A DNA stretch of 64,000 bases from positions 2,436,472 to 2,500,471 of the forward strand of contig AP021858.1 in assembly GCA_017347465.1 (NCBI GenBank), written 5' to 3'. Below are positions 13,103 through 47,756 of this stretch, one piece after another. Under the pieces are notes generated by a model. It was not told the DNA's origin, did not search any database, and worked only from the letters and a program-made list of their open reading frames with translations. The first letter of the stretch is position 1; each line of letters begins with the position of its first letter. A program made the translations under genes and the position numbers. The stretch is from Candidatus Nitrosymbiomonas proteolyticus (lineage in GTDB: Bacteria; Armatimonadota; Fimbriimonadia; Fimbriimonadales; Fimbriimonadaceae).

Positions 13103-13939
13103 ATGAATTCGAGTGTCGATCGCAGCGAGTTTTGGGCGGAAAACGGCTACTGGGTCGAGCGTGCGCTCTTCACGAAAGACGAGTGCTCCTCGTTCATCGA
13201 TCACTTCATGGAGTTGCGGGGGAAGGGCGAGTATTGGGGAGACTTCCCCGGAGTCGATCCTTCGTTCTCTGACCCGTTGCTCAAGTATCCGAGAATGATC
13301 CATATGCACCGGTGGGACTCGCTGAGCCGGGCTTGGGTGGTCGAGCCCCGAATCGGCGGCTGTTTCGCAAACCTGCTCGACGAACTCCCCATCGCCGTTC
13401 AAACGATGCTCTACTTCAAGCCTCCGGGCGCGAGGGGTCAGGCGCTTCACCAAGACCAGACGTACCTGCGGGCCCGGCCAGGAACCTGCTACGCCGCTTG
13501 GCTGGCCCTCGACGATTGCGACGAAGAGAACGGATGCCTCGTGGTCGTCCCGGGCTCTCACCGACTGCCGCTGCTTTGCACGGAGAAGGCGGATCTCACC
13601 GAGAGCTTTACAGACGTCGCCGCGCCCCTGCCCCCAGGAGCCTCGGAGGTTCCTATGGTCATGGAGTCGGGCGACTGCTTGTTCTTCCACGGCAACCTCA
13701 TCCATGGAAGCCACCCGAACCGAACTTCGGACCGCTTCCGCCGTTCGCTGATCGGACATTACATCGACCAGATGTCCGAAGAAGTCGCCGGGTTCTATCA
13801 TCCGGCGATCCGGTTCGACGGCGCCGAGCCCCAATTGGCTGTGAGTCCTGAGGGGGGACCTTGCGGTAGGTTCGTCGCTGAGACCGGTGAGTTGGTGATG
13901 GAGGCGTTCGTCCCGCGCACCGGCCCCAAGCACGAGTAG
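13103..13939 (+). CDS. Phytanoyl-CoA dioxygenase (PhyH) family protein
   Basis: 278-residue Fe(II)/2-oxoglutarate oxygenase. The facial triad is visible: H116 and D118 in LHQDQTY, and distal H201 in LIHGSHPN. A conserved arginine for 2-oxoglutarate follows (NRTSDRFRRSL). Such enzymes hydroxylate lipids or small metabolites; the substrate is unknown. The ATG at 13103 is chosen because the conserved N-terminus (FWAENGYWVERALF) begins shortly after; a TTG 57 nt upstream has no support. A membrane-protein gene follows after 6 nt. Confidence 0.85.
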   Translation: MNSSVDRSEFWAENGYWVERALFTKDECSSFIDHFMELRGKGEYWGDFPGVDPSFSDPLLKYPRMIHMHRWDSLSRAWVVEPRIGGCFANLLDELPIAVQTMLYFKPPGARGQALHQDQTYLRARPGTCYAAWLALDDCDEENGCLVVVPGSHRLPLLCTEKADLTESFTDVAAPLPPGASEVPMVMESGDCLFFHGNLIHGSHPNRTSDRFRRSLIGHYIDQMSEEVAGFYHPAIRFDGAEPQLAVSPEGGPCGRFVAETGELVMEAFVPRTGPKHE

Positions 13940-13945
13940 TAGGCG

Positions 13946-14461
13946 ATGACGGAGGTTCTCAAGTGGCTTGAACGGCTGCTCGATCCCTTGAGCTTCCCTC
14001 GCGACGAGTTCCCTTGGCTCACCCTCGAAACCGCCAAACTGATCGTCCTGATCGGCCTTGTGTGGTTGCCGCTTCACGTCGGACTCGCTTGGCTAAGGCT
14101 GGCCGCCCAGGGCGAGCTTCGGGGGAGGTCGCTTGCCATGCTGGCGGTTCTGCGCGTGCAGACTTGGGCGCTGGGCGCGGTGATTTGGTGCTCAGGAGTG
14201 GCGGCGATCGAAGGTCTGATAAGGGTGAAGGACCCTGGAATCCTGCTGTTTTCGTCTCACGTGGCCGCAGCTTCGGCGTTCTTCCCTCTCCTCGCCCTTT
14301 CGTTGGCGCTGGTTCGCGAGCCTCAAAGGGTAGCGCGGATCGAGGCAATTGCGGGCCCACGCCGGTTCGCGATCTGGTGGGCGGTCGCCTCCCATGTTCC
14401 TATGCTGCTTTCTTGCTCCCCGTTGCTCGCGATTTCCGCCTATGTGGGACTGCCCAACTGA
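13946..14461 (+). CDS. Hypothetical membrane protein
   Basis: 171 residues with four likely membrane helices (about residues 27-48, 61-86, 97-122, 140-168). No family recognised. It starts 6 nt after the PhyH-family gene and ends 22 nt before the amidase gene, so the three probably share a transcript. Confidence 0.7.
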   Translation: MTEVLKWLERLLDPLSFPRDEFPWLTLETAKLIVLIGLVWLPLHVGLAWLRLAAQGELRGRSLAMLAVLRVQTWALGAVIWCSGVAAIEGLIRVKDPGILLFSSHVAAASAFFPLLALSLALVREPQRVARIEAIAGPRRFAIWWAVASHVPMLLSCSPLLAISAYVGLPN

Positions 14462-14483
14462 CGCAGCGGGGTAAAAAGAAGCC

Positions 14484-15080
14484 ATGCCGACGCCATTGCT
14501 CGCTCTCGGAATCCTCGGCGCATTCTGGGCGCAGGAACCTACAGAGTGGAAAGACCCCGGGTACGCCAAGCTCGTCTGGGACCAATCTCCGAACTTCAAT
14601 CGCCGCCCCGAAAGCGCGCTGATCGACACCGTAGTGCTCCATCACACCGCGGGGCCGACACTTTGGGGGACCGTCAGTTGGTTCCGAGCCGAACGTAGCC
14701 AGGTGAGCGCTCACTTCACCATCGGCAAAGATGGCTCCATCGTTCAACATGTTTCGACCTTCGAACGGGCTTGGCACGCGGGGGTGAGCCGGGATCACCT
14801 TGGCAGGGAGAACCTAAACAACTTCTCCGTCGGGATTGAAATGGTGAACGTCGGAGACGGAAACGACCCTTGGACCAAAGAGCAGGTCGCGGTGGTGGGG
14901 TTCCTGATCTCTCACCTGAAGAAGCGCTTCCCGCTCAAGTACATTACGAGCCACGAGTTCATCGCGGTCCCGAAGGGAAGGAAGCCCGACCCCAAGAATT
15001 TCCCGTGGAAGGACCTCGACTGGCTGGGTCTGGAGCTCGTCTACGATATGAGCCGTCGTGCCGACCCATCGACTCGATAG
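14484..15080 (+). CDS. N-acetylmuramoyl-L-alanine amidase (Amidase_2/PGRP family)
   Basis: 198 residues with a short hydrophobic N-terminus ending WAQ, compatible with export. The zinc amidase fold shows VVLHHTAG (H53/H54), FTIGKDGSIVQHV, AWHAG, VGIEMVN, TSHEFI and GRKPDPKNFPW, which carries the last metal/catalytic residues. It should cleave the lactoyl-alanine bond of peptidoglycan in the periplasm, for remodelling or recycling. Confidence 0.88.
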   Translation: MPTPLLALGILGAFWAQEPTEWKDPGYAKLVWDQSPNFNRRPESALIDTVVLHHTAGPTLWGTVSWFRAERSQVSAHFTIGKDGSIVQHVSTFERAWHAGVSRDHLGRENLNNFSVGIEMVNVGDGNDPWTKEQVAVVGFLISHLKKRFPLKYITSHEFIAVPKGRKPDPKNFPWKDLDWLGLELVYDMSRRADPSTR

Positions 15081-32726: not shown

Positions 32727-32783
32727 GCCGGTAACTCTAACGGGTCGAACCCAACCTCCCGACATTAGAGAAGGGTGGATACC

Positions 32784-34289
32784 ATGAGCACGCTTCCCTC
32801 TTTCGTTTCGTCTGTCGATTGGTCTCGGCCGGATTCGCTGGCCTCCAGCTTGCGCTTTCTCAGGCCCTTGTTCGTCGATTCGCGCGTTGCGATCGTCGGC
32901 GAACAGGCCGCAGAGGCCGCCCACTTCGCCTCGCTTTACGCTGAGTCCATAACGGCGTGGGTGGAGTCTGAAGAGCTGAGAGGCGAGTTCCTGATCGAAT
33001 GTCCCTCGATTCCGTGTCGGCTCGTCGCTGATCTCGATGCCGGCAGTTGGGACTGGGCGCTCCTCCAACTCAAAGCCGCCGAAGCCTCGCGTCCTGACCT
33101 GAAAGCGTTGGGTCCGAGGGGAGTGCTTCTCGTCCGCGACTCGGCTCCCGTTGCAGATTCAGGGAGCGGAGTCAGGTGGTTTTCTCGGTCCACAAGCGCC
33201 CCAAGCTGCTTTTCAGAAGGGATCGACCCCCACGCCGACGAGTGGATCGGGTTCTGGGGCGAGATCGAAACTCCTGTTTGGCCCAAGGTATGCGGGGTCA
33301 TTCCGACTCTAAGCCAAGTCGAAATGGCCGTTGCGGCAGCCGAGGCGTTCCTCAATACCTACCCTGGCCCCATGGAGCTGGTGCTCGTCGCGAACGGGAC
33401 GGCCGAGCCGCTTCTTGAAACCCTGCGAGCGTTCGCCCAGGAGCGCCCCGATTCGGTGCGACTGGCCGTGCTTCCCGAAAACCGGGGGTTCGCGGGCGGA
33501 GTCAACGCTGGGCTCGCCGCGTTGGGGGACCTTGAGGAGTGGGACATCGTAGTGGTTTCGAACGACGACGTGATCCCTCACTCCGAGTGCATGGCCGAGA
33601 TCGCCTCCAGTTGGAGGGAACTCAAGGAGCGGGGGCTGCGGCCCGGGATCGTCGGCCCTGTTTCGAACAACATCAACGGCAGACAGCAGGTCGAAATCGG
33701 AATCTACGCGAGCGCGGACGAGATGCAGGCTCGCGCGACGGCGTATCACCGCGACAATTGCCAGTCTGTGAGTCAGGAAATGCAGATTCGGGGCCTGCTC
33801 CTGTGGCTCGACCGGGGACTCGTTTCTGAGATCGGCGGGTTCGACCCTCGGTTCGGGATTGGCAACTTCGAGGACGATGATTACAACCTGAGGGCCCGGC
33901 TTGCGGGATATACGCTTTGGCGGGCCGATGGCGCGTTCCTTCACCATGCAGGCTCTTCGACGTTCAGGTCTCTCAACGTGGACTACGAGGCCAACATCGC
34001 CCGCAACGCCTCACTTTTTTGTGAGAAGTGGCAGATCGACTCGTTGGACAGGTGGCCGCTTTTGGAGCGCGCCCCGCAGGGGGTCTCGCTGTATTGCGAT
34101 CCCGACACGGCGTACCAGCCGAGTGAGTTCTCGGTCACGCTCAACGGAGAGAGGATCGACTTGGTCACGCAGGCTTCGGATATCGAGTTCGCAGGTTGGG
34201 TCCTTTCGAGGTTGGCGCAGTTCCCCCGATCCAAGAGAAGGGACATCATCGAGCTGCTCTCGGAAACTTCCGCTTTCGATGCCGCTTAG
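32784..34289 (+). CDS. GT2-family glycosyltransferase with N-terminal extension
   Basis: 501 residues. Residues ~175-415 form a GT-A fold: NRGFAGGVNAGLAAL, the metal-binding VVVSNDDV (N260-D262), GFDPRFGIGNFEDDDYNLR (acidic cluster at 363-366) and FLHHAGSSTF. A ~175-residue N-terminal domain of no recognised family and an ~80-residue C-terminal domain flank it. Probably transfers sugar to a cell-surface glycan; donor and acceptor unknown. The ATG at 32784 has AGAGAAGG 9 nt upstream. Confidence 0.82.
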   Translation: MSTLPSFVSSVDWSRPDSLASSLRFLRPLFVDSRVAIVGEQAAEAAHFASLYAESITAWVESEELRGEFLIECPSIPCRLVADLDAGSWDWALLQLKAAEASRPDLKALGPRGVLLVRDSAPVADSGSGVRWFSRSTSAPSCFSEGIDPHADEWIGFWGEIETPVWPKVCGVIPTLSQVEMAVAAAEAFLNTYPGPMELVLVANGTAEPLLETLRAFAQERPDSVRLAVLPENRGFAGGVNAGLAALGDLEEWDIVVVSNDDVIPHSECMAEIASSWRELKERGLRPGIVGPVSNNINGRQQVEIGIYASADEMQARATAYHRDNCQSVSQEMQIRGLLLWLDRGLVSEIGGFDPRFGIGNFEDDDYNLRARLAGYTLWRADGAFLHHAGSSTFRSLNVDYEANIARNASLFCEKWQIDSLDRWPLLERAPQGVSLYCDPDTAYQPSEFSVTLNGERIDLVTQASDIEFAGWVLSRLAQFPRSKRRDIIELLSETSAFDAA

Positions 34290-36085: not shown

Positions 36086-36535
36086 CTACCAACTCGAGTA
36101 CGCCGTGCCATCGGACGCATTGCCGCTGGCGGATGACGTGATTTTTCCAACGGACCCGGAGGTCGTCGAGTAAGTGAAAGCGGCACCGGAGACCGGATCG
36201 TTCTCGATCTTCTCTACGTAGGGCCCTTTGTAGTCGGCTGCGTTGATGGACTTCGCGGTTCCCGCTTCGTCCTTGCCAGCAGCCGGCGCGGTCGTGACAG
36301 TCAGATCCGCCAGCTTGTCAGGAAACGCTCCGGTGTCGTTTCGGAACAACTCCACTGCATTCCTGTACAGCTTCAGGTTCGCCTTTAGGGCCGACTCCTT
36401 GCTTCGAACACCGGAGTTCGCAAACTTCGGGATCGCGATAGCGGCGAGGACCGCGATGATGATGATGACGATCAGCAACTCTACCAGCGTGAAGCCGCGA
36501 CGGTTGCCACTTCGATTAGCGAATGCCATTCCCAT
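36086..36535 (-). CDS. Type IV pilin/major pseudopilin-like protein
   Basis: 149 residues. Prepilin leader NRSGNRRG then FTLVELLIVIIIIAVLAAIA, with the invariant Glu5 of mature pilin, cut by a prepilin peptidase not in the window. The body (KSINAADYKGPYVEKIENDP) resembles T2SS-G-like pseudopilins with a calcium-site-like loop. It is the last gene of the pilus operon, 71 nt after pilC, and may have its own promoter. The ATG at 36535 has GAAGGGG upstream; an in-frame ATG lies 6 nt later. Confidence 0.85.
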   Translation of the reverse strand: MGMAFANRSGNRRGFTLVELLIVIIIIAVLAAIAIPKFANSGVRSKESALKANLKLYRNAVELFRNDTGAFPDKLADLTVTTAPAAGKDEAGTAKSINAADYKGPYVEKIENDPVSGAAFTYSTTSGSVGKITSSASGNASDGTAYSSW

Positions 36536-36606
36536 TGTTACCCCTTCTAAGGAACCTCGCCCCGTTCTGGCCAGGTCTATTGGACATTGTCGGCAGGGAT
36601 TTGCCA

Positions 36607-37839
36607 TTACTTTACGTTTTGCACCACAGAATAAATCGGACCGATGATCGAGATCGTGATGAACCCGATAATGCCGCCCATGAGCACGATCATGACGGGT
36701 TCGACGATCGATACCAGCGACTTGATCTTGCCGTCGACCTCTTCTTCGAGATGCTCCGCAGTCGTAGCCAACAGCGCGGGCAATCGGCCCGTCCGTTCGC
36801 CAACAGTCACCACCTGAGTCAGCATCGAAGGGAAAACGCGAGCGGCCGCCAGGGACTCGGAGAGCGACTTGCCGTGCTCGACCGAGTCACGAACCTCCTT
36901 CAGCGCCTTCGAGATCGTCCCGTTGCCAGCCACGCGAGCGGAGTGCTCCAGCGCCGACATCAGAGCCACGTTCCCTGCCGTAAGCGTTGCAATGGACTGA
37001 AACGCCCGCGAAAGGGCCAACTTGCGAGAAACCTCGCCAAGGAGCGGCAGGCGCTCGGCGAATCTGGTGAGGGCGAAGCGTGTAGCTGGGATTCGGACCA
37101 ACGCGACAATCCCGGCGATGGTGGCAAGAGTGCCCACGACCAACGGAATCGGGTTCTCGCGCCCCGCGTTTCCGACACTGAGCAGCCACAACGTGAGTTT
37201 CGGTACTTCGGAGCCCATGGACTCGAAAATCGAGCCAAACCTCGGCAGAACGAAAAGCACGAGCACCACGATCGCAGCAAAAGCGATGAATGTAAGGACC
37301 GCGGGATAGAGCATTGCGTTCGCGATTCTCCGCTTGAGGTCGGCGCTCCGAGCTAGGTACGCAGCCGATCCCTTCAGGGCACGATCCAGGCGGCCGCCTT
37401 CTTCAGCCACGGCGACCATTTCGCAAACGACCGAGGGGAACATCTCAGGCGCAGACTTCATCGCGGCAGACAGGCTCTTCCCGCCGACGATCTCGGACTT
37501 GACGCGGTGGAGCGCGCCCCGTGTTGTCGAGTTTTTCGCGGAGCCGATGACGGCATCGAGGGCTTCCACAAATGGAACTCCCGTCTCCGCCATCACGGAG
37601 AGGTCCCGAAGCACCAGACAAACGTCGGCGTCTCTGACCTTTCCGCTCTTCCTTGCGCGTGCGTCGCGCTCGGTCAAGGCTTCAGACTCCTTCTTTCGGA
37701 ACGATGCCGGGATGATCGAGATGATCGTAATGTCCATGCCGGCGACGCGGCGCTCGGCTTCGTCGATGTGGTGGGCGATCACCTCGCCGGTGACCCGCTT
37801 GCCTTGGCTGTTGACGCCCTGATATTTGAACGCGTTCAT
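36607..37839 (-). CDS. pilC: Type IV pilus/type II secretion inner-membrane protein PilC/GspF
   Basis: 410 residues. Two T2SSF cytoplasmic domains (about 65-190 and 270-395) with membrane helices near 167-195, 215-240 and 375-400. Diagnostic patterns: RDLSVMAETGVPFVEALD, GGKSLSAAM, FPSVVCEMVAVAEEGGRL and AFQSIATLTAGNV. It forms the inner-membrane platform driven by PilB. It starts 4 nt after pilB. Confidence 0.92.
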   Translation of the reverse strand: MNAFKYQGVNSQGKRVTGEVIAHHIDEAERRVAGMDITIISIIPASFRKKESEALTERDARARKSGKVRDADVCLVLRDLSVMAETGVPFVEALDAVIGSAKNSTTRGALHRVKSEIVGGKSLSAAMKSAPEMFPSVVCEMVAVAEEGGRLDRALKGSAAYLARSADLKRRIANAMLYPAVLTFIAFAAIVVLVLFVLPRFGSIFESMGSEVPKLTLWLLSVGNAGRENPIPLVVGTLATIAGIVALVRIPATRFALTRFAERLPLLGEVSRKLALSRAFQSIATLTAGNVALMSALEHSARVAGNGTISKALKEVRDSVEHGKSLSESLAAARVFPSMLTQVVTVGERTGRLPALLATTAEHLEEEVDGKIKSLVSIVEPVMIVLMGGIIGFITISIIGPIYSVVQNVK

Positions 37840-37843
37840 GCGT

Positions 37844-39550
37844 TTACTCCCCAGCGGTCGACCGAATGACCTCTTCGACCGTCGTCGAACCTTCTTTCAC
37901 CTTTCGCAAGGCGTCTTCGCGTAAGAGGGTCATGCCCTCCTCGCTCCCCCGCTCACGGATATCGGCGGCGCTCGCACCCGCGAGGATCATCTTGCGAACC
38001 GACGGCGAGATGTCGAGCACCTCATAGACCCCCGTTCGGCCGCGATAACCCGACCTGGCACAGTACTCGCAGCCCGTGCCCCGAACGTACTCGACGTCCC
38101 GTTCCAACCCCAGTCGGGCTAGCATCGCCTCGGGCGGGTCGTAGGGCTCGGAGCACTTGGGGCAGACCATCCTGAGCAGGCGCTGCGCCACCGAGCAACT
38201 CACGCTCGAAGCGAGGAGGAACGGCTCGACTCCCATATCGATCAGCCTTGTAATGGCCGCCGCGCTGTCGTTGGCGTGAACGCTCGTTAAGACTTGGTGG
38301 CCGGTCAGCGAAGCCTCGACCGCAATCGACGCAGTTTCCGCGTCTCGGACCTCCCCCACCAAGATTACGTCCGGGTCTTGACGTAGGATCGACCTCAGGC
38401 CGTTCGCAAACGTTGTTCCCGCCTTGGGGTTAACGTTCCCCTGAACCACGCCGTCGATCTGATACTCCACCGGGTCCTCGATCGTGATGATGTTCCGGTG
38501 GACCGCGTTCAGATGGTTGATGGCGGCGTACAGCGTCGTCGTCTTCCCTGAGCCCGTCGGACCCGAAACCAACACGAAACCCTGCGGCTCTTCGATCGCG
38601 GTCCGAAAGACCTCGCGCGGCGTTGGGTCCAATCCAATCTTGCCGAGATCGAGCACAGAGCTGTTCTTGTCGAGAATGCGGATAACCACGTTCTCGCCGT
38701 GGGTGCTCGGATAGGTCGAAACGCGGAAGTCAAACTCCCCTTGAGCCGAGATCAGCGTGCAGCGCCCGTCCTGAGGAACTCGGCGCTCGGCGATATCGAG
38801 GTTCGCCATGATCTTGATGCGCGAAACGAGAGCCTGCTGAAGGTCGCGGGGGACAATCATGACCTCCTGCAACATGCCATCGATCCGAAAGCGAACCCGA
38901 ACGCGCCGGGACATCGGCTCGATGTGAATGTCGCTTGCCCGCATGGAAAGAGCCCGCGTCATCAGCGCGTTGGCGAGCTTGATGACCGGCGCCCCTTCGA
39001 CGACCTCCTTGAGTTCGACGACGTTGACCTTCTCGTCTTCGTCGTCGGCCTGTGCGAGCCGAACGTCCTCGGTATCTACGCCTTTGATCGCCTCACCGAT
39101 GATCTCGCCCAGGTCGTCGTAAGCCCCGTAGCAACGAAAGATCGCGTCGCGGACGTCCTCTTCGGTAGCGAGCAGGGGGTCGATGTCGAGTTGGAGGACC
39201 GTGCTCAGTTCGTCGATCGCAGCCAGATCGAGCGGGTTCACCATCGCAACTGAGGCGGCTGTTTCGGTCGCCTCGATCGGAATCGCCAGCAGCCTCAGAG
39301 CCAGAGAATGCGGAGAAATCTGGGCGACGTTCGCGTCGATCTCCATCTTGGCCAAGTCAACGAACGGAACACCCATTTGCAAGCCGACGCACTTGAGCAT
39401 CTGCTTCTGTGTGATGAGGTTCTTGCGAACCAGCAACTCGCCTACGGACTCGGTTGTATCGGTACGACTTCCGAGAATATCGCCGAGTTGATCGCGAGTG
39501 ATCAGCCCTTCTTCGACAAGGATTTCGGCAAGGGGACGATCGAGGTTCAT
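37844..39550 (-). CDS. pilB: Type IV pilus assembly ATPase PilB/GspE
   Basis: 568 residues. The N-terminal MshEN-like region (about 5-150: LAEILVEEGLITRDQLGDIL and a second repeat VGELLVRKNLITQKQM) resembles cyclic-di-GMP-binding MshEN domains. The ATPase core has Walker A GPTGSGKTT (from G330), RQDPDVILVGEVRD (Walker B) and LTGHQVLTSVHAND (His box). A zinc tetracysteine follows (CPKC, CEYC). It powers pilus extension or secretion. The start overlaps the pilQ stop by one base (TAATG). Confidence 0.95.
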   Translation of the reverse strand: MNLDRPLAEILVEEGLITRDQLGDILGSRTDTTESVGELLVRKNLITQKQMLKCVGLQMGVPFVDLAKMEIDANVAQISPHSLALRLLAIPIEATETAASVAMVNPLDLAAIDELSTVLQLDIDPLLATEEDVRDAIFRCYGAYDDLGEIIGEAIKGVDTEDVRLAQADDEDEKVNVVELKEVVEGAPVIKLANALMTRALSMRASDIHIEPMSRRVRVRFRIDGMLQEVMIVPRDLQQALVSRIKIMANLDIAERRVPQDGRCTLISAQGEFDFRVSTYPSTHGENVVIRILDKNSSVLDLGKIGLDPTPREVFRTAIEEPQGFVLVSGPTGSGKTTTLYAAINHLNAVHRNIITIEDPVEYQIDGVVQGNVNPKAGTTFANGLRSILRQDPDVILVGEVRDAETASIAVEASLTGHQVLTSVHANDSAAAITRLIDMGVEPFLLASSVSCSVAQRLLRMVCPKCSEPYDPPEAMLARLGLERDVEYVRGTGCEYCARSGYRGRTGVYEVLDISPSVRKMILAGASAADIRERGSEEGMTLLREDALRKVKEGSTTVEEVIRSTAGE

Positions 39551-41001
39551 TAATCTTCCGATTTGAGAATCGTCGGAGTGATCGAGATGATCACCTGGGA
39601 CGACACCTTGGTCCTCTTGCGCCGAGTAAACAACTCGCCGATGAGCGGAATCTGGCTGATGATGGGGACCCGTTCGAGCTGAACGATCTCCTCGTCTTTG
39701 AGCAACCCGCCCATCACGATCGTCTGGCCCGAAGGCACTCGGAGTGTCGTCTGAGCCTCTCTCGTTGAAATCTGCGGGTAGCTTGCGCCGTTGACCTCGA
39801 GGAATCCGGTCACCGTGGAAACCTGTGGGTACAGCACGAGCGTAACCTGCCCGTCAGAACTCACTTGGGCCGAAACCTGAAGGTAGATGCCAACGCGCTC
39901 CTCTTCCCGCGAGAAGATCGGGGTATTGGCTTGCGTGTAGCCAACGAGCACCGGAAACACGAGCCGATCGCCGATCAAGATGAACGCCTTTTCGCCTTCG
40001 AGGACCGAGATGTTCGGCGACGCGAGGAGCTTGGCGCGGTTTTGCTGCTCGAGAGCCTTGATCGCGGCCGAAAACGCCTGCGGGACCCTCGTGAAAGTAC
40101 CGAAATTCAGCTTGTTGGGTGACGATTCTGAGATCGCGAGATTGCCGAGACTCCAGCTCATCCCCATCTCCTTCAGCGCGTCCTCGTTGATGTCATGGAT
40201 CGTGACTTCGATCACGACCTGAGGCCGTGCGAGGTCGATCGCTTCGAGCAGCCTTCGCGCTTCTTCGAGTCGTTGCCTTGGCCCTCGAAGGATCAGAAGC
40301 TTGCTGCCGTTTCCGGTTTCGGAGCCCGATTCAGTGAGAGTGCCGGCTTGGACTCCCGTGGTTGCCGAGGTTTCTGCCCGGCTGAGTCCTGGAGTAATCA
40401 TCGAGGGAGCGACTTCGGCCACCAGGTCGCTCTTGGCGAAGAACTTCTCGATGAACGAGATCGCCTCAGACCCGCGAAGATATCGGAGTTGAACGACCTC
40501 GACTTCGAGAGCGGGAGGCTCGGGCGTCGCGACCTCTTCCCCAAATGCCTTTGCATACTCGGTCGGGTACCCTGATTTCAGCTTCTCCGGCGTGGCTAGG
40601 ACGAACGTCTGTCCGACCTTGAGGGCCTTGAGGCCGCTCAGGGCGCAAAGATGCATCAGCATTTCGCCGAGCTTGACGTTGGCAAGACGCACCGTGAGCT
40701 TCGAGCTTGCGTTCGAAAGCAGTACGAGGTTAGCCCCCGTTTGCTCGCTCAGGATGCTCGTCATTTTGGCAAGGTCCCAATCGACGGCGTTGAGCGAGCA
40801 GATTCGCTCCTCGGGTGGGGTCTCGGGATCGTCCGCTTCCACTTCGGCTGACGCCTGCGGAGGCTCGACCTGCTTTGCCGGTTTCTGGACCGTGACGTTC
40901 GCAGTCGTCGGCGCCGGCGTCAGTTGCGCTGGGATGATGGCAGAACTCGTCGCGGAGCTTACGTGAAAATAGGCTAAAGAAGCTAATAGAAGGCCGTTCA
41001 T
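39550..41001 (-). CDS. pilQ: Secretin PilQ/GspD
   Basis: 483 residues, short for PilQ. It has an N-terminal hydrophobic export segment, a Pro/Glu-rich linker (~25-65), an N0/STN-like domain (~66-140), one N1-type domain (~165-260) with a polar insertion (TPGLSRAETSATTG), and a C-terminal secretin barrel: LLASPNISVLEGEKAFILIG, VPSGQTIVMGGLLKD, VPIISQIPLIGELF. It makes the outer-membrane pilus pore. AMIN domains of classical PilQ are absent. Confidence 0.9.
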   Translation of the reverse strand: MNGLLLASLAYFHVSSATSSAIIPAQLTPAPTTANVTVQKPAKQVEPPQASAEVEADDPETPPEERICSLNAVDWDLAKMTSILSEQTGANLVLLSNASSKLTVRLANVKLGEMLMHLCALSGLKALKVGQTFVLATPEKLKSGYPTEYAKAFGEEVATPEPPALEVEVVQLRYLRGSEAISFIEKFFAKSDLVAEVAPSMITPGLSRAETSATTGVQAGTLTESGSETGNGSKLLILRGPRQRLEEARRLLEAIDLARPQVVIEVTIHDINEDALKEMGMSWSLGNLAISESSPNKLNFGTFTRVPQAFSAAIKALEQQNRAKLLASPNISVLEGEKAFILIGDRLVFPVLVGYTQANTPIFSREEERVGIYLQVSAQVSSDGQVTLVLYPQVSTVTGFLEVNGASYPQISTREAQTTLRVPSGQTIVMGGLLKDEEIVQLERVPIISQIPLIGELFTRRKRTKVSSQVIISITPTILKSED

Positions 41002-41615
41002 ATTTGAACCTCGCCACCCACTTTGAGCCGCACAGAGCCTTTGGGTGTGGCGAGGGTCACGCCTTCGTCGTCGATTGCAGTGACTCGGATGCCTTCAAGG
41101 ATCACGTCGTTCGCGCGGAACGGCGTGTCTTCCGTTGAGTTGACCGAGATATAGGCGACCCTTCCCTTGACTTCCATGACGGCCTTGAGAACCAGCGTTG
41201 CATAGCGGTTCTGCTCTGATTCTCGGCCAGTCCCGGTATTTTCATCAGGGTTCGGAGGGGCCGAACTCCCGGTGGGTCGTATGTTTGGAAGGATGTCTTC
41301 GATCCCGAAAGGTAGCGGCGGACGGCCGTTCCCCATCAAGCCGGGAGGGATCCCGGTCGCATCGGCGGCAGGGTCGGTCGGCAAGTCCCCCATTCCCTCA
41401 GCGATCAGCATCAGCCGAGGGTGAGAAAACGGATCGACCTGCAACGCCATGGGAAGTTGCAGCAGTTCGTCGGCGATCGCCGTTTGGGTCTCGTCGGCCT
41501 CGGCGGCGGCCACCTTCGCGGGACCATTGCCGAGCAATTGGATCATGAGGAATGCGATAGCTGCCACCGCCCCGATGGCCAACCATGTCGCCTTGCGCCG
41601 GTCGCCGAGTTGCAT
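40998..41615 (-). CDS. pilP: PilP/GspC-like pilus alignment protein
   Basis: 205 residues. One N-terminal membrane helix (about 8-28), a proline-rich periplasmic stretch (~85-130), and a C-terminal HR-type beta domain (LKAVMEVKGRVAYISVN to VRLKVGGEVQI) like PilP/GspC. It would link the PilMNO inner-membrane complex to the secretin. Its ATG/TGA overlaps with pilQ (4 nt) and pilO (1 nt) and its position support the name more than sequence alone. Confidence 0.75.
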   Translation of the reverse strand: MQLGDRRKATWLAIGAVAAIAFLMIQLLGNGPAKVAAAEADETQTAIADELLQLPMALQVDPFSHPRLMLIAEGMGDLPTDPAADATGIPPGLMGNGRPPLPFGIEDILPNIRPTGSSAPPNPDENTGTGRESEQNRYATLVLKAVMEVKGRVAYISVNSTEDTPFRANDVILEGIRVTAIDDEGVTLATPKGSVRLKVGGEVQI

Positions 41616-42193
41616 TATCCTGTCACTCCCGGCGTCACGATGCGAAACTGGATCGCAGCGGCTAATACGGCCACTCCGGTTCGGCTTACCGACTGCCTGG
41701 TGACTTCGACAACGTTGAACTCGAGGGGAACATCACATTTCTTGAGGGCGCCCAGCGCGCCCAAGACGTTGGCGGCCGTACCTTGGATCACCGCCTGGGC
41801 TTCGATCTGGCCCCACCCGTTCTGCTCCGCGTCGAATCGGAATCGGCTTAAGTAGGGGGCGATTTCTGCCCCTGCGTGAAACTCTTGCAGAACGCAGTTC
41901 CACTCGACGGCGACATTCTGAAGGTAGTTTCGCGTGGCCGCCACACTTTCGAGCCCCTTGGGAGACGGCGTTTCCTCGATTCCCTTGGCCTTGTCGAGGA
42001 GTTCCAGCGAGCTGTCGATTCGGTCCTGCAATCCGGAGGCCTTGGTTCGGAGGTCCTCAGCCTCCCCCCGCAGTCGGAAGTAGTCGAGCGCGAGAACCGA
42101 GACGGTCAAGAACGCGGCGATGGCAAGGGTCGCCGTCGCTCGCTTGACGAGCTTGAGAGACGAGGGCCTTCCGAGCCAGATGCGGTACTTCAT
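41615..42193 (-). CDS. pilO: PilO-like pilus assembly protein
   Basis: 192 residues. A short cytoplasmic start, a membrane helix (~17-37), a coiled coil (~40-75, DYFRLRGEAEDLRTKASG) and a ferredoxin-like periplasmic domain. Sequence similarity to PilO is weak, but size, topology and place between PilN- and PilP-like genes fit. ATGA overlap with pilN. Confidence 0.72.
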   Translation of the reverse strand: MKYRIWLGRPSSLKLVKRATATLAIAAFLTVSVLALDYFRLRGEAEDLRTKASGLQDRIDSSLELLDKAKGIEETPSPKGLESVAATRNYLQNVAVEWNCVLQEFHAGAEIAPYLSRFRFDAEQNGWGQIEAQAVIQGTAANVLGALGALKKCDVPLEFNVVEVTRQSVSRTGVAVLAAAIQFRIVTPGVTG

Positions 42194-42792
42194 CGGGCCA
42201 CTTGCACCTTCTTGAGAAAGTCGAAGGCAAGGCCGTTGTCGCCCAGGAGAGCGCTGCTGCGCGTCGAGGAAAGCACGGCAGTCTTGACCGAGGGCCCGTG
42301 GGAGGCGGCGGCGACGAAGTCACGCAGGCTCGCGTAGCTTTCGCAATCGCCTCGGAGCGTCATCGCCAACTGGCCGCCGACGAGTTCACCCCGCAATGAG
42401 GAGACCGCCATCGACTTGGGGACTGAATTGAGTACCAACAAGAGGTTGCCGAGCACCAGTTCGCTTTGGCTCGACATACGTTCCTGCATCTCGTGCCCAG
42501 CGAGCATGGGCGTGGTGACCTCGCTTTGCTTCTCGATCGATTCGACCTGTTTCTCCAGGATTGCGACGTTGGCGCGGCTCTTTCGGATCTCCGTGGCGAC
42601 CTCCGCCCTGGACTCCAGAATCGACGGAACGACGACAGAACTCGACCCGATTACGACGGCAAGAAGGAGCAACCAGCGCGCCGATCGCAACGCTATCGCC
42701 CTGCGCAACTCGATACGCTCGGAAAGGAGGTTCGCCTCGACGTTGATCGAGCGATCAGCTTGCCCGCGCCCAAACAAACTCTCTTGTAGCAT
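42190..42792 (-). CDS. pilN: PilN-like pilus assembly protein
   Basis: 200 residues. A cytoplasmic N-terminus containing the PilN-type SINVEANLLSERIELRR stretch (binds PilM), a membrane helix (~38-58), a coiled coil (~60-95) and a periplasmic domain. It overlaps the end of pilM by 38 nt, an unusually long overlap that implies tight coupling. Confidence 0.78.
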   Translation of the reverse strand: MLQESLFGRGQADRSINVEANLLSERIELRRAIALRSARWLLLLAVVIGSSSVVVPSILESRAEVATEIRKSRANVAILEKQVESIEKQSEVTTPMLAGHEMQERMSSQSELVLGNLLLVLNSVPKSMAVSSLRGELVGGQLAMTLRGDCESYASLRDFVAAASHGPSVKTAVLSSTRSSALLGDNGLAFDFLKKVQVAR

Positions 42793-43918
42793 CGTCCGTT
42801 CCCTGCCGGAGGTCGCGCGATTCCAAGTGCGACATCGCCAGCCCCACCGAGACCGTATAGGCTTCTTGCCGGTTCACGATGTTCGTAAACGCCTCCTTGC
42901 TGAACTTGCCGACCATCCCTGCGAACGGTCGAGCCCGCTCGACGCGGAGGCCGACGGTCCTTTGTACATATTCGGCAAATCCCCGCAATCCCCCCAGTCC
43001 CCCACAGAGAATCACGTGGTCGAGGATGCCCGCATAGCTACGCTCGGGGTGCAAGGACCGGAAGTACCTGAGCAACCGAACGAACTCGGTATGGAGCTTG
43101 TCGACTTCCGAATGCACGCTGACCCTAGCGGGAAGGCCCTCGACCTCGACATGGAGGACCCCGTTCTCGTCGAGTTCGGTGAGTTCGGCTCCGAGGAGTT
43201 CCTCCGCACGATCCTGGGGGATTCCGAGTTCGAGAGCGACCGCTCGCGCGATCCGCTCGGAGCCAAATCGGATGCTCCGCATGAATTGCAGTCGCTGGTT
43301 TTGCACGACGTACATGTGCGCATTGTTGCTGCCCATATCGATGATCGTAAGCGACGCGTCGCGCCACAGGGCGGAGCGCTGATTCAGGTTGCGCTCGACG
43401 ACTCGCAAGAGAGCTGACGCTTCGAGTTCCGCCGAAACAGGTTCGATCCCCGCGTACTCCAGGACCTCGGCACGAGAGTCCACGATGGCTTTGGGGACTG
43501 CGAAAACGAGGGACGGACCTGTTTCGGCGCCATCCGGCACGTCGGGTGTCGAGGCCTCGATGTAGGCGGCTTCGACCGAAAACGGGATGTGCCGCTTGAC
43601 CTTGTACCTCGCGGCGTCTCGGAGGTCTTGTCCCAGAAGCGGGGGCAGCGAGACCCACCGAAGGGTCGCCAACTGGCTCGGAATCGAGAAAACAGCCGAA
43701 TGAAGAGGGATTCCTGCCCCTTCCAGATGCTTCGCGAGCCTTGCAGCGAGGGGTTTCGGAGACGTTACGACCCCTTCTTCGACGATTCCTGGGTCGAATT
43801 CGAGCAGGCCAGCCGCCTGGATATCCACCCGGCCAGCTGACCGCCGCAGGCTCAGAGTCTTGACGACTCGGCTGCCAAAGTCGATGCCAAGCCCAAACTC
43901 CTCAAGGGAATGAATCAC
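42755..43918 (-). CDS. pilM: Actin-like pilus assembly protein PilM
   Basis: 387 residues. Actin/FtsA-like fold: GLGIDFGSRVVKTLSLRR at the start, SAVFSIPSQLATLRWVSLPP, FAVPKAIVDSRAEVLEYAG, IIDMGSNNAHMYVVQN and LDHVILCGGLGGLRGFAEYV. It is a cytoplasmic ring component that binds PilN. The GTG start at 43918 is chosen because the family begins there, GAGAGGAG lies just upstream, and it is 16 nt after the HD-GYP stop; upstream codons read through that gene. Confidence 0.9.
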   Translation of the reverse strand: MIHSLEEFGLGIDFGSRVVKTLSLRRSAGRVDIQAAGLLEFDPGIVEEGVVTSPKPLAARLAKHLEGAGIPLHSAVFSIPSQLATLRWVSLPPLLGQDLRDAARYKVKRHIPFSVEAAYIEASTPDVPDGAETGPSLVFAVPKAIVDSRAEVLEYAGIEPVSAELEASALLRVVERNLNQRSALWRDASLTIIDMGSNNAHMYVVQNQRLQFMRSIRFGSERIARAVALELGIPQDRAEELLGAELTELDENGVLHVEVEGLPARVSVHSEVDKLHTEFVRLLRYFRSLHPERSYAGILDHVILCGGLGGLRGFAEYVQRTVGLRVERARPFAGMVGKFSKEAFTNIVNRQEAYTVSVGLAMSHLESRDLRQGTDDATREFVWARAS

Positions 43919-43934
43919 CGGGCCGAAGCTCCTC

Positions 43935-45584
43935 TCACGCTGCCTCCGCCTCCTCTTCGGTCCAATAATGCGCGTACAACTCTTGCATCCGGGCCGAATT
44001 GAGCAGGTCGCGCAGGGACTCGACGACGACCGGATCAAACTGGATTCCCGCCCCTCGGCTGAATTCCGACATCACCGTATGGCGGTCCATGACACCACGG
44101 TACGGCCTGCGCGAACTCATCGCGTCGAAGGCGTCCGCCACGCATACGATCCTGAGCGAAAGCGGCAGCTCACCGCCCTTGAGGCCGTCGGGATAGCCGC
44201 TTCCATCGAGCTTCTCATGGTGGTTGCGGATGATCATCAGCACGCCTTCGGAGAGGGCGAGCGGCTTACAAATCTCATACCCGATGACCGGGTGCGTCTT
44301 CATGATCTCGAACTCGTCGTCGGTGAGCCTGCCGCGCTTGTTCAGAATCGCATCGGGCACACCGATCTTCCCAATGTCGTGGAGCACGGTCCCGACCCTC
44401 AGCTCTTCCAGTGCTTCAGGTCCGAAACCGAGTCGCTCGGCGATGAGGAGCGAGACCTCGCAGACCCTTTGGGAGTGGCCCCGCGTGTACTCGTCCCGAG
44501 CTTCCAAGGCGGTCGCGAGACTTTGCATAGTCCGAACAAAGGTCGAATGTTGCCTTTCGTCCGACCTCGCGTTCGAAACCGCCACAGCGACGAGCGCGGC
44601 GAAGGTCCGGAGGAGTTCCATGTCATCGGCAGTGAATGAATCTCCCTTGTGGGTGCTCAACAAGGTCATAACGCCCAACACTTGCTCCTCCGCCGAACGG
44701 CCCGGCGTCGACGACCCGCGCGTGAGCAACGGAACCGAAATCGCTGCCGTCACCCCTTCCGTAATGCCGTCAAACCCGCTCTGATCTTCGTTCTTATCGG
44801 TGACAGAGACGGGCTGGCCCATTTTGGCGACGTACCCGGAGAGTCCAAACCCAAAGTCGAGCTCTTGCGGGAAATCGAACTCGCCGTGGGGAGAGTACGC
44901 GACCTCCGTGACCAGGGGTCCCCTGGACTCATCTGCGCCGAGCATGATGTAGCCACAGCTCGCTCCCGTCTCGACGACCGCCGCCTTGATGGTCAGTTCC
45001 ATCGTAGCGCGCAGATCTTGACTTTCTGCAAAGGCAAGTCCTACCCGCTGGACCGCATGAAGGCGCTGGTCCCTGCGAGAGAGGTTCACTTCGCGCCGTT
45101 GCGCCTTCGAGAGACCGGCGGCAAACGCCCCAGCGACGACGACGGCCCCCAAGGACATCGCCAAGGAGACCCAGGTGTGGTTGGCCAGCATGTTGAACGC
45201 AAGGCAAACAGCGGCCGTCCAGCCCGAAAGCGAAAAGATCCTCCGCAAGTTATGGTGGACCAACGAATCGGCGATGATGAGCGGGATGCTTAGAAGCCAC
45301 AAGTTGTGAGAGGCGACGCTCGGCACGAGCAAGGTCGCCATGATGGCGAGCGCATCCAAATACGCTACTGAGTTTCGAGCTGACGCGACGAACTTGAACC
45401 GGAACTCGATCGACTCCGATGCGACAAAAAGGATGTTCGAGATTACCGCTGCGCCCATGGCGAGCAGCCAAACCGATGACCGAAGCTCCTCGATCGTGAT
45501 CAACCCGGCGACGCCAATGAGGCACCACCGGACCAACGCGGCCCCACGAATCCAATTCAAATCCTTCTTGCCTCTCATGGCCAA
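43935..45584 (-). CDS. GAF/HD-GYP protein (putative c-di-GMP phosphodiesterase)
   Basis: 549 residues. Five or six N-terminal membrane helices (~13-160), a GAF domain (~185-335) and an HD-GYP domain (~350-530) with HDIGKIG (H402-D403), the HHE motif in IIRNHHEKLDG and the GYP signature DGSGYPDGLKGG. It should hydrolyse cyclic di-GMP. It sits inside the pilus operon, overlapping the gene before it by 10 nt and 16 nt ahead of pilM, implying control of pilus assembly by cyclic di-GMP. The start is 45584 or 45578. Confidence 0.92.
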   Translation of the reverse strand: MAMRGKKDLNWIRGAALVRWCLIGVAGLITIEELRSSVWLLAMGAAVISNILFVASESIEFRFKFVASARNSVAYLDALAIMATLLVPSVASHNLWLLSIPLIIADSLVHHNLRRIFSLSGWTAAVCLAFNMLANHTWVSLAMSLGAVVVAGAFAAGLSKAQRREVNLSRRDQRLHAVQRVGLAFAESQDLRATMELTIKAAVVETGASCGYIMLGADESRGPLVTEVAYSPHGEFDFPQELDFGFGLSGYVAKMGQPVSVTDKNEDQSGFDGITEGVTAAISVPLLTRGSSTPGRSAEEQVLGVMTLLSTHKGDSFTADDMELLRTFAALVAVAVSNARSDERQHSTFVRTMQSLATALEARDEYTRGHSQRVCEVSLLIAERLGFGPEALEELRVGTVLHDIGKIGVPDAILNKRGRLTDDEFEIMKTHPVIGYEICKPLALSEGVLMIIRNHHEKLDGSGYPDGLKGGELPLSLRIVCVADAFDAMSSRRPYRGVMDRHTVMSEFSRGAGIQFDPVVVESLRDLLNSARMQELYAHYWTEEEAEAA

Positions 45585-46618
45585 AAACCGGGAAGTTTGT
45601 ACTTGGGTCCCTCTTCGGGATTGTCGGCGAGGAAGCGGTCGAACCCGATGATGAACGCCTTCTTGAGCTCAAGATTGTCCAGCGAGGCGGCGATTCCGGG
45701 CTCGAGCTTCACCGTCGGCCCCCCATCGATTTTCAGCTTCTTGGCAGAATAGAGCACTCCGACGACGTTGGCCGTTGATCCCGTGACCCTTATCTCGCCC
45801 CCCGCGAGAAACACAGCGCGGCTGTTCTTGTCGGCGTAAGACGTATCGCCTTGAAACTCGATGTCGCCTTTGGCGACGATTGTTCCCTTGCCCGTGATCG
45901 TTCCGGAAAGCTTCAGGCTACCGTCCACATAGACGACCTCGTAGTTCTTCGCGAACGTGAATCCGAGAAGAGTAGAGCCGGAAATCGTCCGATCCGCGAT
46001 GGATGCGTACAGGCTCACATCCAGAGGCGGCAGCCCCCGAGTCTGGAGGTTTTGGCCGACTCCGTCCGTGACCGTGACCAAAGGGTTGGTGACGGTGGAC
46101 GTCGCTCGCAACTCGCCATTGACGGTAAACAACTGGGTACCGATGACTCTGCCTTCGTTCCAAACGTTACTCTTGAGGAGGAGGGACCCAACTACCAATG
46201 AACTTGAGATGTTCAGATCGGCCATCGTGGAGAGCCCATAAGTAAAGGGGCTTTCCAGGTACGGCCTCGCAAACACCTTTCGTCCGTATTCGACCTTTCC
46301 GTTCACAATTCCCATTCCGCTCACGAGGATCGAATCGGTTTTCGATGCGGAGTTATCCGTCAGCGTCAAGTTCCAAGTTCCGCCGTTGATGGCGACGGTG
46401 ATCATGCTCGCGCTCAATTCGCGATTTCCAGCGGCGAACTCGGAAACGACCTTGTTGGCAACCGCATCGAAGGACGAGTTGACGAGGTGGCTCCTTTCCG
46501 CAAGTCGTTGACGCTGGACCTCTTGAGTGATCGAACCTACCGTCGCCAGGATCACGGTCGTGGCCGCGATACTGGTCAATAAGGTAAAGAGCAGTGCGCT
46601 TCCTCGTTGTTTTTTCAT
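45575..46618 (-). CDS. PilX-like pilus protein of unknown subtype
   Basis: 347 residues. One N-terminal membrane helix preceded by KKQRGSALLF, recalling PilX-type minor pilins (G then S/A-L-L), but without Glu5. The rest is a repetitive beta-rich region (LSGTITGKGTIVAKGDIEFQ, RAVFLAGGEIRVTGST) like the polymer-forming or DUF7305-type domains found in PilX-family proteins. It probably belongs to the minor-pilin priming complex. The ATG at 46618 has GGAGGA upstream. Confidence 0.65.
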   Translation of the reverse strand: MKKQRGSALLFTLLTSIAATTVILATVGSITQEVQRQRLAERSHLVNSSFDAVANKVVSEFAAGNRELSASMITVAINGGTWNLTLTDNSASKTDSILVSGMGIVNGKVEYGRKVFARPYLESPFTYGLSTMADLNISSSLVVGSLLLKSNVWNEGRVIGTQLFTVNGELRATSTVTNPLVTVTDGVGQNLQTRGLPPLDVSLYASIADRTISGSTLLGFTFAKNYEVVYVDGSLKLSGTITGKGTIVAKGDIEFQGDTSYADKNSRAVFLAGGEIRVTGSTANVVGVLYSAKKLKIDGGPTVKLEPGIAASLDNLELKKAFIIGFDRFLADNPEEGPKYKLPGFWP

Positions 46619-47289
46619 CCGTTCCTCCAGCAAACCACGCGGGTAATCGTGTAAGAATACGTTTCTCTATCGGCCGACCCGCTGACGGTTCGGTTTCGAC
46701 CCGCCGCAGAGGATGCGGTAATGGTGTACGTTACGGTCTTAGTCGCCGAATCGACCTTGAACTCAAGCTGGGACAACAGGTGGAACTTGTTGTTGGCAGA
46801 GCCGTAGTACCGGCTCCAATTCATGTCGATGTCGCCCGAAGTCGGAATCGTGTCGTCAGAGCGAATCGCTTTGTGGGGGTCAATTCCCGCCAAGGAGTCC
46901 TTCGAAAGAACTCCACCGAGCCTGCCCAAAACGTACCAGACACGCTTTCCGGCCGAGTAGGATGCCTTGCGGTAAGTCGTGACCGAATCCAGATCGTACG
47001 CGTCGGCGGTACCGTCGCCTTGCCGGTCGTACACCGTCGCAGGCATCGTACACTTGAGATATACGTATTTGCCCGAGGGGACAAGTTCGCAATTGATCGC
47101 CGATTGGACGGTCGCTTCGATGTCCTGCGCGACGGCGGTTGCTTGCCGAACGGCCTCCGCGCGGGCAAAAGCGTGGCCCATCCTCACCACAACGAAACCA
47201 TAAACGCCCACTGCTGCCGAAACCACGATGCCCGTTAGCACCGAGGCCAGCGCCACTTCGACCATGGTAAGCCCGCGCCTGCGCTTCAT
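46615..47289 (-). CDS. Minor pseudopilin, PilW-like
   Basis: 224 residues. Prepilin leader MKRRRG then LTMVEVALASVLTGIVVSAA with Glu5, a class III signal. The body is beta-rich with no recognised family. Overlaps both neighbours by an ATGA-type junction. Likely cut by prepilin peptidase and part of the pilus tip or priming complex. Confidence 0.75.
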   Translation of the reverse strand: MKRRRGLTMVEVALASVLTGIVVSAAVGVYGFVVVRMGHAFARAEAVRQATAVAQDIEATVQSAINCELVPSGKYVYLKCTMPATVYDRQGDGTADAYDLDSVTTYRKASYSAGKRVWYVLGRLGGVLSKDSLAGIDPHKAIRSDDTIPTSGDIDMNWSRYYGSANNKFHLLSQLEFKVDSATKTVTYTITASSAAGRNRTVSGSADRETYSYTITRVVCWRNG

Positions 47290-47756
47290 TCGCCGACCCT
47301 CACTTGCGCGGTGAGCGTCAAGGTCTTTGAACCTGTGGAGGCGTAGGAGGAGTCGCCTTCCCAAGCTCCCGTGACCTCGACCTGGAATAGCTTGGGCACG
47401 CCCGAAATCGCGGTCACCTTGCGCGTAACCGTGACCTTGTCCGCGATCGAAATCGTGGACATCGGCAGGCCGTCGGTCGGTAGGGCAGTTCCCGATGCGT
47501 TCGCGAGTTTGCCGCCGTTGGAGTAGGTCACAGTTCGAGTCGATGGCGATAGGCTGCTCGTCTTGGCGGCAGCGCGGGCCGCTTCGAGCTCGTTCTTCAT
47601 CACCGCGAGCACGACAGCCCTTTTCCGGGAGATTTCCGCGCGTTTGGCGGTGTAAACGGTTGACCCGATGAGCCCCGATGCCGCAGCGCCCAAAAACACC
47701 GCTGCTACCAGCAACTCTGCGAGCGTCGTTCCCCTGCGACGATTGTGCCGTCTCAC
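47286..47756 (-). CDS. Minor pseudopilin, PilV-like
   Basis: 156 residues and the first gene of the pilus operon. Leader MRRHNRRRG then TTLAELLVAAVFLGAAASGL, with Glu5 present. The remainder has a PilV/GspI-like length and fold pattern (KRAVVLAVMKNELEAARAAA). The 180-nt gap upstream (47757-47936), shared with the divergent ABC transporter genes, should hold both promoters; it shows a repeated TATCGGCA but no clear -35/-10 pair. Confidence 0.75.
   Translation of the reverse strand: MRRHNRRRGTTLAELLVAAVFLGAAASGLIGSTVYTAKRAEISRKRAVVLAVMKNELEAARAAAKTSSLSPSTRTVTYSNGGKLANASGTALPTDGLPMSTISIADKVTVTRKVTAISGVPKLFQVEVTGAWEGDSSYASTGSKTLTLTAQVRVGE

Follow-up and report, generated by a model that had tools for sequence, protein, structure and literature searches.

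We analysed a stretch of 64,000 nucleotides (hereafter the window) from Candidatus Nitrosymbiomonas proteolyticus, contig AP021858.1 (G000:C1:2436472-2500471, G000 being the organism's own genome), in which the gene of a predicted HD-GYP phosphodiesterase of cyclic di-GMP (c-di-GMP) is placed inside the type IV pilus operon. The HD-GYP protein ends in two alanines (Ala-Ala, or AA), and so do 68 of the 85 HD-GYP or GGDEF proteins at the loci sampled in its lineage, against 30 of 827 other genes. With modest confidence we lean towards the reading that this is a pilus-linked phosphodiesterase whose amount is set by an ssrA-like Ala-Ala C-terminal degradation signal (C-degron) common to much of the c-di-GMP network. 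The sequence-only reading of this DNA had proposed a local loop in which the HD-GYP protein degrades c-di-GMP and the pilus ATPase PilB senses it. The shared tail is the more surprising result and the more testable one, through a change of two residues.

The HD-GYP protein and its C-terminal alanines

The HD-GYP gene (45578-43935, minus strand) encodes a protein of 547 residues with Pfam matches to GAF_2 at residues 189-336 (1.6e-15) and to HD_5 at 356-520 (2e-32). The HD_5/HD-GYP family PF13487 scores 112.7 bits, above its curated cut-off of 27.2. All residues of what we take to be the catalytic and metal-ligand set, including the HD and GYP motifs, are present (H368, H400, D401, K404, H429, H453, H454, G461, Y462, P463 and D482). 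Six helices are predicted at the N-terminus by the structure model, and these are probably transmembrane. The closest solved structure, best both by sequence (4.9e-41) and by fold, is PDB 4mcw, which we take to be PmGH of Persephonella marina. The extra metal ligand of that enzyme is presumably a glutamate, and because the window residue aligned to it is Tyr364, a two-metal centre would be the more likely one here. The protein ends EAEAA. Its last two alanine codons, GCA and GCG, are followed by the stop TGA (43935-43943, minus strand), and this Ala-Ala is the predicted degron. Neither the helices nor the two terminal alanines figured in the sequence-only reading.

Ala-Ala closes 18 of the 19 aligned HD-GYP proteins, and Ile-Ala the other. 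For the counts over loci, frames of at least 200 residues were taken, duplicates were removed by their last 60 residues and the proteins were sorted by motif. The AA enders of the lineage comprise 42 of 48 HD-GYP proteins, 24 of 35 GGDEF proteins and both proteins that carry the two domains. The window type of HD-GYP accounts for 33/36 and the other HD-GYPs for 9/12; a stricter HD-GYP motif gave 26/27, compared with 42/48 for the wider one. The contrast with the other genes has a Fisher p of 4e-62, which is not an independent-sample probability, the proteins being related and picked by similarity. As at least 5 of the 30 other AA enders are themselves c-di-GMP-type proteins (L004, L005, L251, L254 and L284), 30/827 overstates the background. 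In the own genome, a sample of 20 hand-placed stretches at rough intervals plus the window contained 307 frames of at least 200 residues, seven of which end in AA, the window HD-GYP being one of them. Five of the six own-genome proteins with a Pfam GGDEF match end in AA, the one at L283 being the exception, as do three of the seven with an HD_5 match (window, L090 and L094, and not those of L091 and L092 or the two of L093). By these sequence counts the tail is conserved beyond chance in HD-GYP/GGDEF proteins, under statistics that ignore descent.

The conservation is confined to the last two positions. Alanine is found at -1 and -2 in 91 and 87% of the HD-GYPs and in 85 and 74% of the GGDEFs, while at positions -3 to -10 no residue exceeds 25%, the residues before the tail not being conserved. 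Such an ending might stem from base composition, from the codon context or from operon junctions, and in operons of this type the HD-GYP stop does lie near the start of pilM. We rejected base composition or a junction as the cause, an origin that we find hardly credible, on three grounds. The alanine pair is encoded by 13 codon combinations, the alanine codons varying among genes; the alanine share at -3 to -12 shows little or no enrichment (9% in HD-GYPs and 11% in GGDEFs vs 8% in other genes); and the tail is also present on the HD-GYP of L084, whose surroundings showed no pil gene. This origin is further countered by GGDEF genes elsewhere that carry the tail too, and by its rarity among other genes.

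The tail on MshEN proteins with intact motifs

The tail was also counted on proteins with an MshEN domain. These were scored at 22 key positions of the two-motif consensus (R/K/L)LGxx(LVI)(LVI)xxG(LVI)(LVI)xxxxLxxxLxxQ, drawn from excerpts of PMC5013675 and PMC11731258. Two proteins of the own genome have near-perfect motifs, and both end in AA: an ATPase at G000:1682020 (L099:5775-7559; 19/22, with 61 bits against a cut-off of 38 for the NCBI c-di-GMP-motif model NF053729) and an MshEN-only protein at G000:1691379 (L099:14534-15841; 18/22). From their motifs, these two are likely to be the true c-di-GMP receptors of the genome. None of the four own proteins with degenerate motifs, window PilB included, carries the tail.

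The same relation is seen over nine genomes, from which 44 MshEN proteins were taken (all the matches listed for eight relatives, with four of five for G046, and the own six) and the 43 with a complete C-terminus were compared. Among those with at least 18 of the 22 key positions, 8 of 11 end in AA, the others in SA, VA and AS, and below that value the tail is found on 3 of 32 (p=1.5e-4). Cut-offs of 16, 17 and 18 all separate AA from non-AA enders (p from 6e-5 to 1.5e-4), with p values that ignore descent, and eight of the 11 high-scoring proteins represent, or seem to represent, a single MshEN-only orthologue. Considering that AA is found on HD-GYP, GGDEF and intact-motif MshEN proteins, the tail would track c-di-GMP competence over three protein families.

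The two intact-motif genes of the own genome lie about 9 kb apart, and a gene for a ParA-like ATPase (13672-14499) adjoins that of the MshEN-only protein. Around the intact MshEN ATPase, no pilus cluster was found among the ten neighbours scanned, which include glycosidase, urocanase and aromatic-amino-acid-lyase families, PEP-CTERM proteins, a polysaccharide-export protein, a peptidase and the ParA-like ATPase.

MshEN motifs of PilB

The loop of the sequence-only reading would act within the operon, the HD-GYP protein removing the c-di-GMP that is sensed by the MshEN domain of PilB and thereby setting pilus extension. The shared operon stands behind it, HD-GYP and pilB being found in one operon in all 18 genomes of this type, the own included. 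Also in its favour, window PilB (37844-39550, minus strand; C-terminus STAGE, without the AA tail) has a Pfam MshEN match at residues 59-142 (3.1e-18) and matches PDB 5htl at 1.2e-12, so that the MshEN-like N-terminus that had been described was recovered. The comparison of its ligand residues showed that several are missing. In motif I, PLAEILVEEGLITRDQLGDILGSR, the first Arg/Lys/Leu, the glycine at position 3 and the final glutamine are all replaced (R1 by P, G3 by A and Q24 by R), and in motif II, SVGELLVRKNLITQKQMLKCVGLQ, the changes are R1 to S, L2 to V, G10 to N, L17 to M and L21 to V. Window PilB thus keeps 14 of the 22 key positions, with R1 replaced in both motifs, and does not have the two motifs of a receptor; its NF053729 score of 35.8 bits is below the cut-off of 38.

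Part of this departure is common to the operon type. In all 18 aligned PilBs (window and 17 relatives) motif I ends in Arg and not Gln, and motif II has a residue other than Leu at position 17; an Arg at the start of motif II is found, among the relatives, in the PilB of L076. Six of the 21 PilBs of window operon type, the window counted in, lie above the NF053729 cut-off (L067 43.2, L070 46.5, L073 38.7, L075 42.8, L076 42.7 and L279 39.2). Because the window protein fails this cut-off while 6/21 pass, c-di-GMP binding by PilB is doubtful, as far as the motifs tell, in the own species and plausible in some relatives. Studies of other MshEN proteins, as excerpted, point both ways. The change of motif I Gly11 to Ile in MshE abolished binding (PMC5013675; the window residue is Ala), and no binding is seen for Thermus GSPII-A, in which one motif is good and the other degenerate, while GSPII-C of Thermus PilF binds although its motif II begins with Pro (PMC11731258).

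The PilB motif scores are higher where the HD-GYP is intact (n=14) than where it is degenerate (n=7; Mann-Whitney p=2.6e-4, ignoring descent, with the PilB of L079, which has no NF053729 match, set to 0), as the loop would lead one to expect. However, in the tree the degenerate HD-GYPs all belong to a single clade, of which the intact L083 is also a member, and for this reason the co-degeneration is close to a single evolutionary event. Overall, the degrade-and-sense loop is weakly supported for the own species, and we hold it to be rather unlikely. A reader of c-di-GMP other than window PilB, e.g. the ATPase at 1682020 or the MshEN-only protein at 1691379, is more likely here.

Synteny of the HD-GYP gene with pilus genes

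In the own genome and in 17 of 60 relatives (L067-L083), pilM follows immediately after the HD-GYP gene. These 17 are all the relatives whose best PilM match is of the window type (at least 143 bits, the next best being 125). All 17 loci hold pilQ and pilB, and 13 each hold pilC and pilA, several of the absences being at contig ends. L084 of G046, the similar HD-GYP mentioned above, is outside the 17. At L083:4437-6114 (G007) PilB appears as two overlapping frames in an otherwise complete-looking gene set, from a frameshift or a sequencing error. A phylum-wide draw of 201 genomes, the own included, added window-type operons L279-L282, L285 and L286. In other families, PilX stands directly upstream of the HD-GYP gene (L270, L272-L274, L276, L277 and L289), where BLAST found no window-like pilM after it; the gene order of L272 and L276 is pilC-pilA-pilV-pilW-pilX-HD-GYP. 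The recurrence in 17/60 relatives means that the arrangement is not due to chance. The HD-GYP gene is firmly a member of the pilus operon, present at the locus in relatives and built in as the sequence-only reading had it.

In a short, membrane-less clade (L077-L082, L285 and L286; G033, G030, G021, G022, G002, G004, G213 and G199) different substitutions have removed either the HD histidine or the later aspartate from the pilus HD-GYP, and GYP, the position beside pilM and the AA tail are all kept. One explanation is that the HD-GYP protein is mainly a structural or c-di-GMP-binding subunit of the pilus, with catalysis secondary. The eight operons of this clade, which hold on to the gene beside pilM despite the loss of H400 or D482, are what such a subunit would leave. 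Set against them, the other 15 pilM-linked HD-GYPs that were scored (window, L067-L076, L083 and L279-L281) have the full ligand set, and we find a mainly structural role improbable.

Gene content of the pilus operon in the window

The operon is complete and runs on the minus strand, with three minor-pilin-like genes, HD-GYP, pilM, pilN-, pilO- and pilP-like genes, pilQ, pilB, pilC and pilA, so that pilA, pilB, pilC, pilM and pilQ, which together define a type IV pilus operon, are all recognised by Pfam or NCBIfam. BLAST counterparts of each gene were counted in the loci of the 17 relatives. The first gene of the cluster encodes a PilV-like minor pilin (47286-47756; counterparts near the locus in 11/17) and the next a PilW-like one (46615-47364; 12/17), neither with an NCBIfam match. 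The PilX-like gene (45575-46633; 10/17, without a Pfam match) overlaps the HD-GYP gene by 4 nt, the HD-GYP ATG lying on its TGA stop (ATGA, 45578-45575). The sequence-only reading had begun the HD-GYP gene at 45584, a TTG two codons upstream; the ATG at 45578 was taken here as the start, and the position in the operon is as it had been given.

The HD-GYP stop is followed after 16 nt by the GTG start of pilM (42755-43918; Pfam PilM_2 5.3e-28; TIGR01175 133.8 vs 133), and both this spacing and the overlap with the minor-pilin gene agree with what had been noticed. A PilM paralogue of the own genome (L103:4834-6075) ends in AA. The pilN-like (42190-42792; counterparts in 10/17 loci), pilO-like (41615-42193; 11/17) and pilP-like genes (40998-41615; 8/17) were assigned by gene order and these counterparts, the first two without a convincing Pfam match and the third with none. 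The secretin gene pilQ (39550-41001; Pfam Secretin 1.6e-39) is present in 17/17 loci. Five genes (pilM, N, O, P and Q) thus separate HD-GYP from pilB, again as described earlier; pilB itself matches Pfam T2SSE in addition to MshEN and is found in 17/17 loci. The operon ends with pilC (36607-37839; T2SSF 1.7e-53; 13/17, several of the others being lost at contig ends) and a pilA-like major pilin gene (36086-36607; N_methyl 5.7e-09; 13/17). Outside the pilus operon, at 32775-34289 of the window, a protein of 504 residues, a putative glycosyltransferase by look alone, ends FDAA.

The degron reading and its mechanism

The tag of the own-genome transfer-messenger RNA (tmRNA) is ANNNFAYAA, ending YAA, and a ClpX zinc-finger match is present in the genome. 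Ala-Ala at a C-terminus is a well-known signal for degradation. According to excerpts of the papers cited, an Ala-Ala to Asp-Asp allele of CtrA was stabilised (PMC12421884), some E. coli substrates have conserved C-terminal di-alanines (PMC3946367), and C-terminal ClpX signals are reported in Streptococcus mutans, where SsrA ends AVAA (PMC10782952). Enzymes of c-di-GMP are themselves among protease substrates, as the excerpts describe for Caulobacter PdeA, degraded by ClpXP (PMC10212136), and for the E. coli phosphodiesterase PdeH, through an N-terminal signal (PMC12974527).

In the mechanism that we propose, the HD-GYP protein would be a c-di-GMP phosphodiesterase produced together with the inner-membrane pilus platform and presumably sited at it, since its start is fused to a minor-pilin stop, pilM follows immediately and membrane helices are predicted. 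It would lower c-di-GMP locally and be tuned by its GAF domain, and its amount would be set by proteolysis, Ala-Ala serving ClpXP, or some other AAA+ protease, as a C-degron of the ssrA kind. The makers, the breakers and some readers of c-di-GMP would then stand under one turnover code, with AA on most of the GGDEF, HD-GYP and intact MshEN proteins sampled in the nearer lineage. Because the tail is kept after ligand loss in the short clade, the amount of these HD-GYPs suggests itself as something that still matters, as scaffold or binder.

The two alanines might serve a purpose other than degradation, as a tail by which the c-di-GMP proteins dock to, and are gathered by, a common hub, e.g. a scaffold or polar protein. 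A hub of this kind would account for a tail common to makers, breakers and intact MshEN proteins and retained by HD-GYPs that have lost metal ligands. The conservation of only two residues is more in keeping with a C-degron than with a docking motif, and the own tmRNA tag has the same ending; we give the docking tail little credence. The degron reading can be taken further, to the whole c-di-GMP signalling of the lineage (cyclases, HD-GYPs and MshEN receptors) under one Ala-Ala destruction code, through which a single protease or adaptor could reset the network at once, the pilus HD-GYP being one fixed node and the tail outliving catalysis. This extension we put forward tentatively, as a possibility that falls somewhat short of an even chance.

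Limits of the tail

Several observations weigh against the degron reading. Ala-Ala alone is no proof of targeting to ClpXP, and a protease would need to extract the HD-GYP protein from the membrane in which it would be anchored. The model confidence (pLDDT) is below 50 at tail residues 543-547, but since that of the GYP loop, 459-466, is likewise low, this is weak support for a flexible tail. The loci were chosen either because they resembled the window HD-GYP or because they gave the best GGDEF matches, and related sequences are among those counted. The tail is not universal in the own genome, as HD-GYPs L091 and L092 and the GGDEF protein L283 show. Nor is it restricted to c-di-GMP enzymes: 4 of 12 own response-regulator proteins end in AA, one of them an HD-GYP (3 of 10 without the two HD-GYPs, one being a hybrid histidine kinase), and so does an own HDOD protein. 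The PilM proteins of six relatives have the same ending (L070, L076, L077, L079, L082 and L083). These cases lead to a wider statement, that the AA tail may mark signalling proteins in general, above all c-di-GMP enzymes.

The tail has a boundary in the phylum too. Among 20 HD-GYPs from 19 families drawn phylum-wide and not counted in the 68/85 (families f12 and f17 having been sampled before), 6 end in AA (f8, f12, f17, f26, f39 and f40), which rules out a phylum-wide AA trait. The other 14, at L357-L370 (f25, f36, f27, f6, f44, f19, f23, f13, f9, f31, f41, f14 and f7), place the boundary of the trait inside the phylum. AA as a trait of HD-GYPs everywhere is ruled out by the loci of other bacteria, where it is found on 3/75 HD-GYP/GGDEF proteins and 7/283 other genes (3/81 HD-GYP frames under another gene rule).

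Comparison with known systems

That proteases control individual c-di-GMP enzymes is already known. If the degron reading is true, with a tail on most cyclases, phosphodiesterases and intact receptors, second-messenger control has a general layer of regulated proteolysis, and the last two residues become a sequence rule for finding c-di-GMP enzymes and receptors. In addition, a lineage that has been little studied is shown to carry a predicted phosphodiesterase within a conserved pilus operon. In the literature searched, from which subscription papers were mostly absent, we found no earlier report of the AA tail on c-di-GMP proteins, none linking cyclic di-GMP, ClpXP, Ala-Ala and ssrA together, and none on an armatimonad HD-GYP.

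As in PDB 4mcw, a GAF-HD-GYP c-di-GMP phosphodiesterase, GAF precedes HD-GYP in the window protein, which adds an N-terminal membrane region, a location in a pilus operon and the C-terminal AA. Window PilB shares the fold family and the N-terminal location of the MshEN domain with V. cholerae MshE (PDB 5htl) and GSPII-B of T. thermophilus PilF, and deviates from them at several ligand positions in both motifs. The turnover by ClpXP of PdeA in Caulobacter and of PdeH in E. coli likewise makes a c-di-GMP enzyme a protease substrate; the PdeH signal, however, is N-terminal, and a network-wide C-terminal tail is described for neither in the excerpts of those sources. The nearest likeness is with the Caulobacter CtrA degradation signal and the ssrA tag, whose last two residues are Ala-Ala, as are those of the own tmRNA tag. 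Unlike in those systems, the tail is here a predicted signal, and it is carried not by single regulators but by most of the HD-GYP/GGDEF proteins sampled in the nearer lineage.

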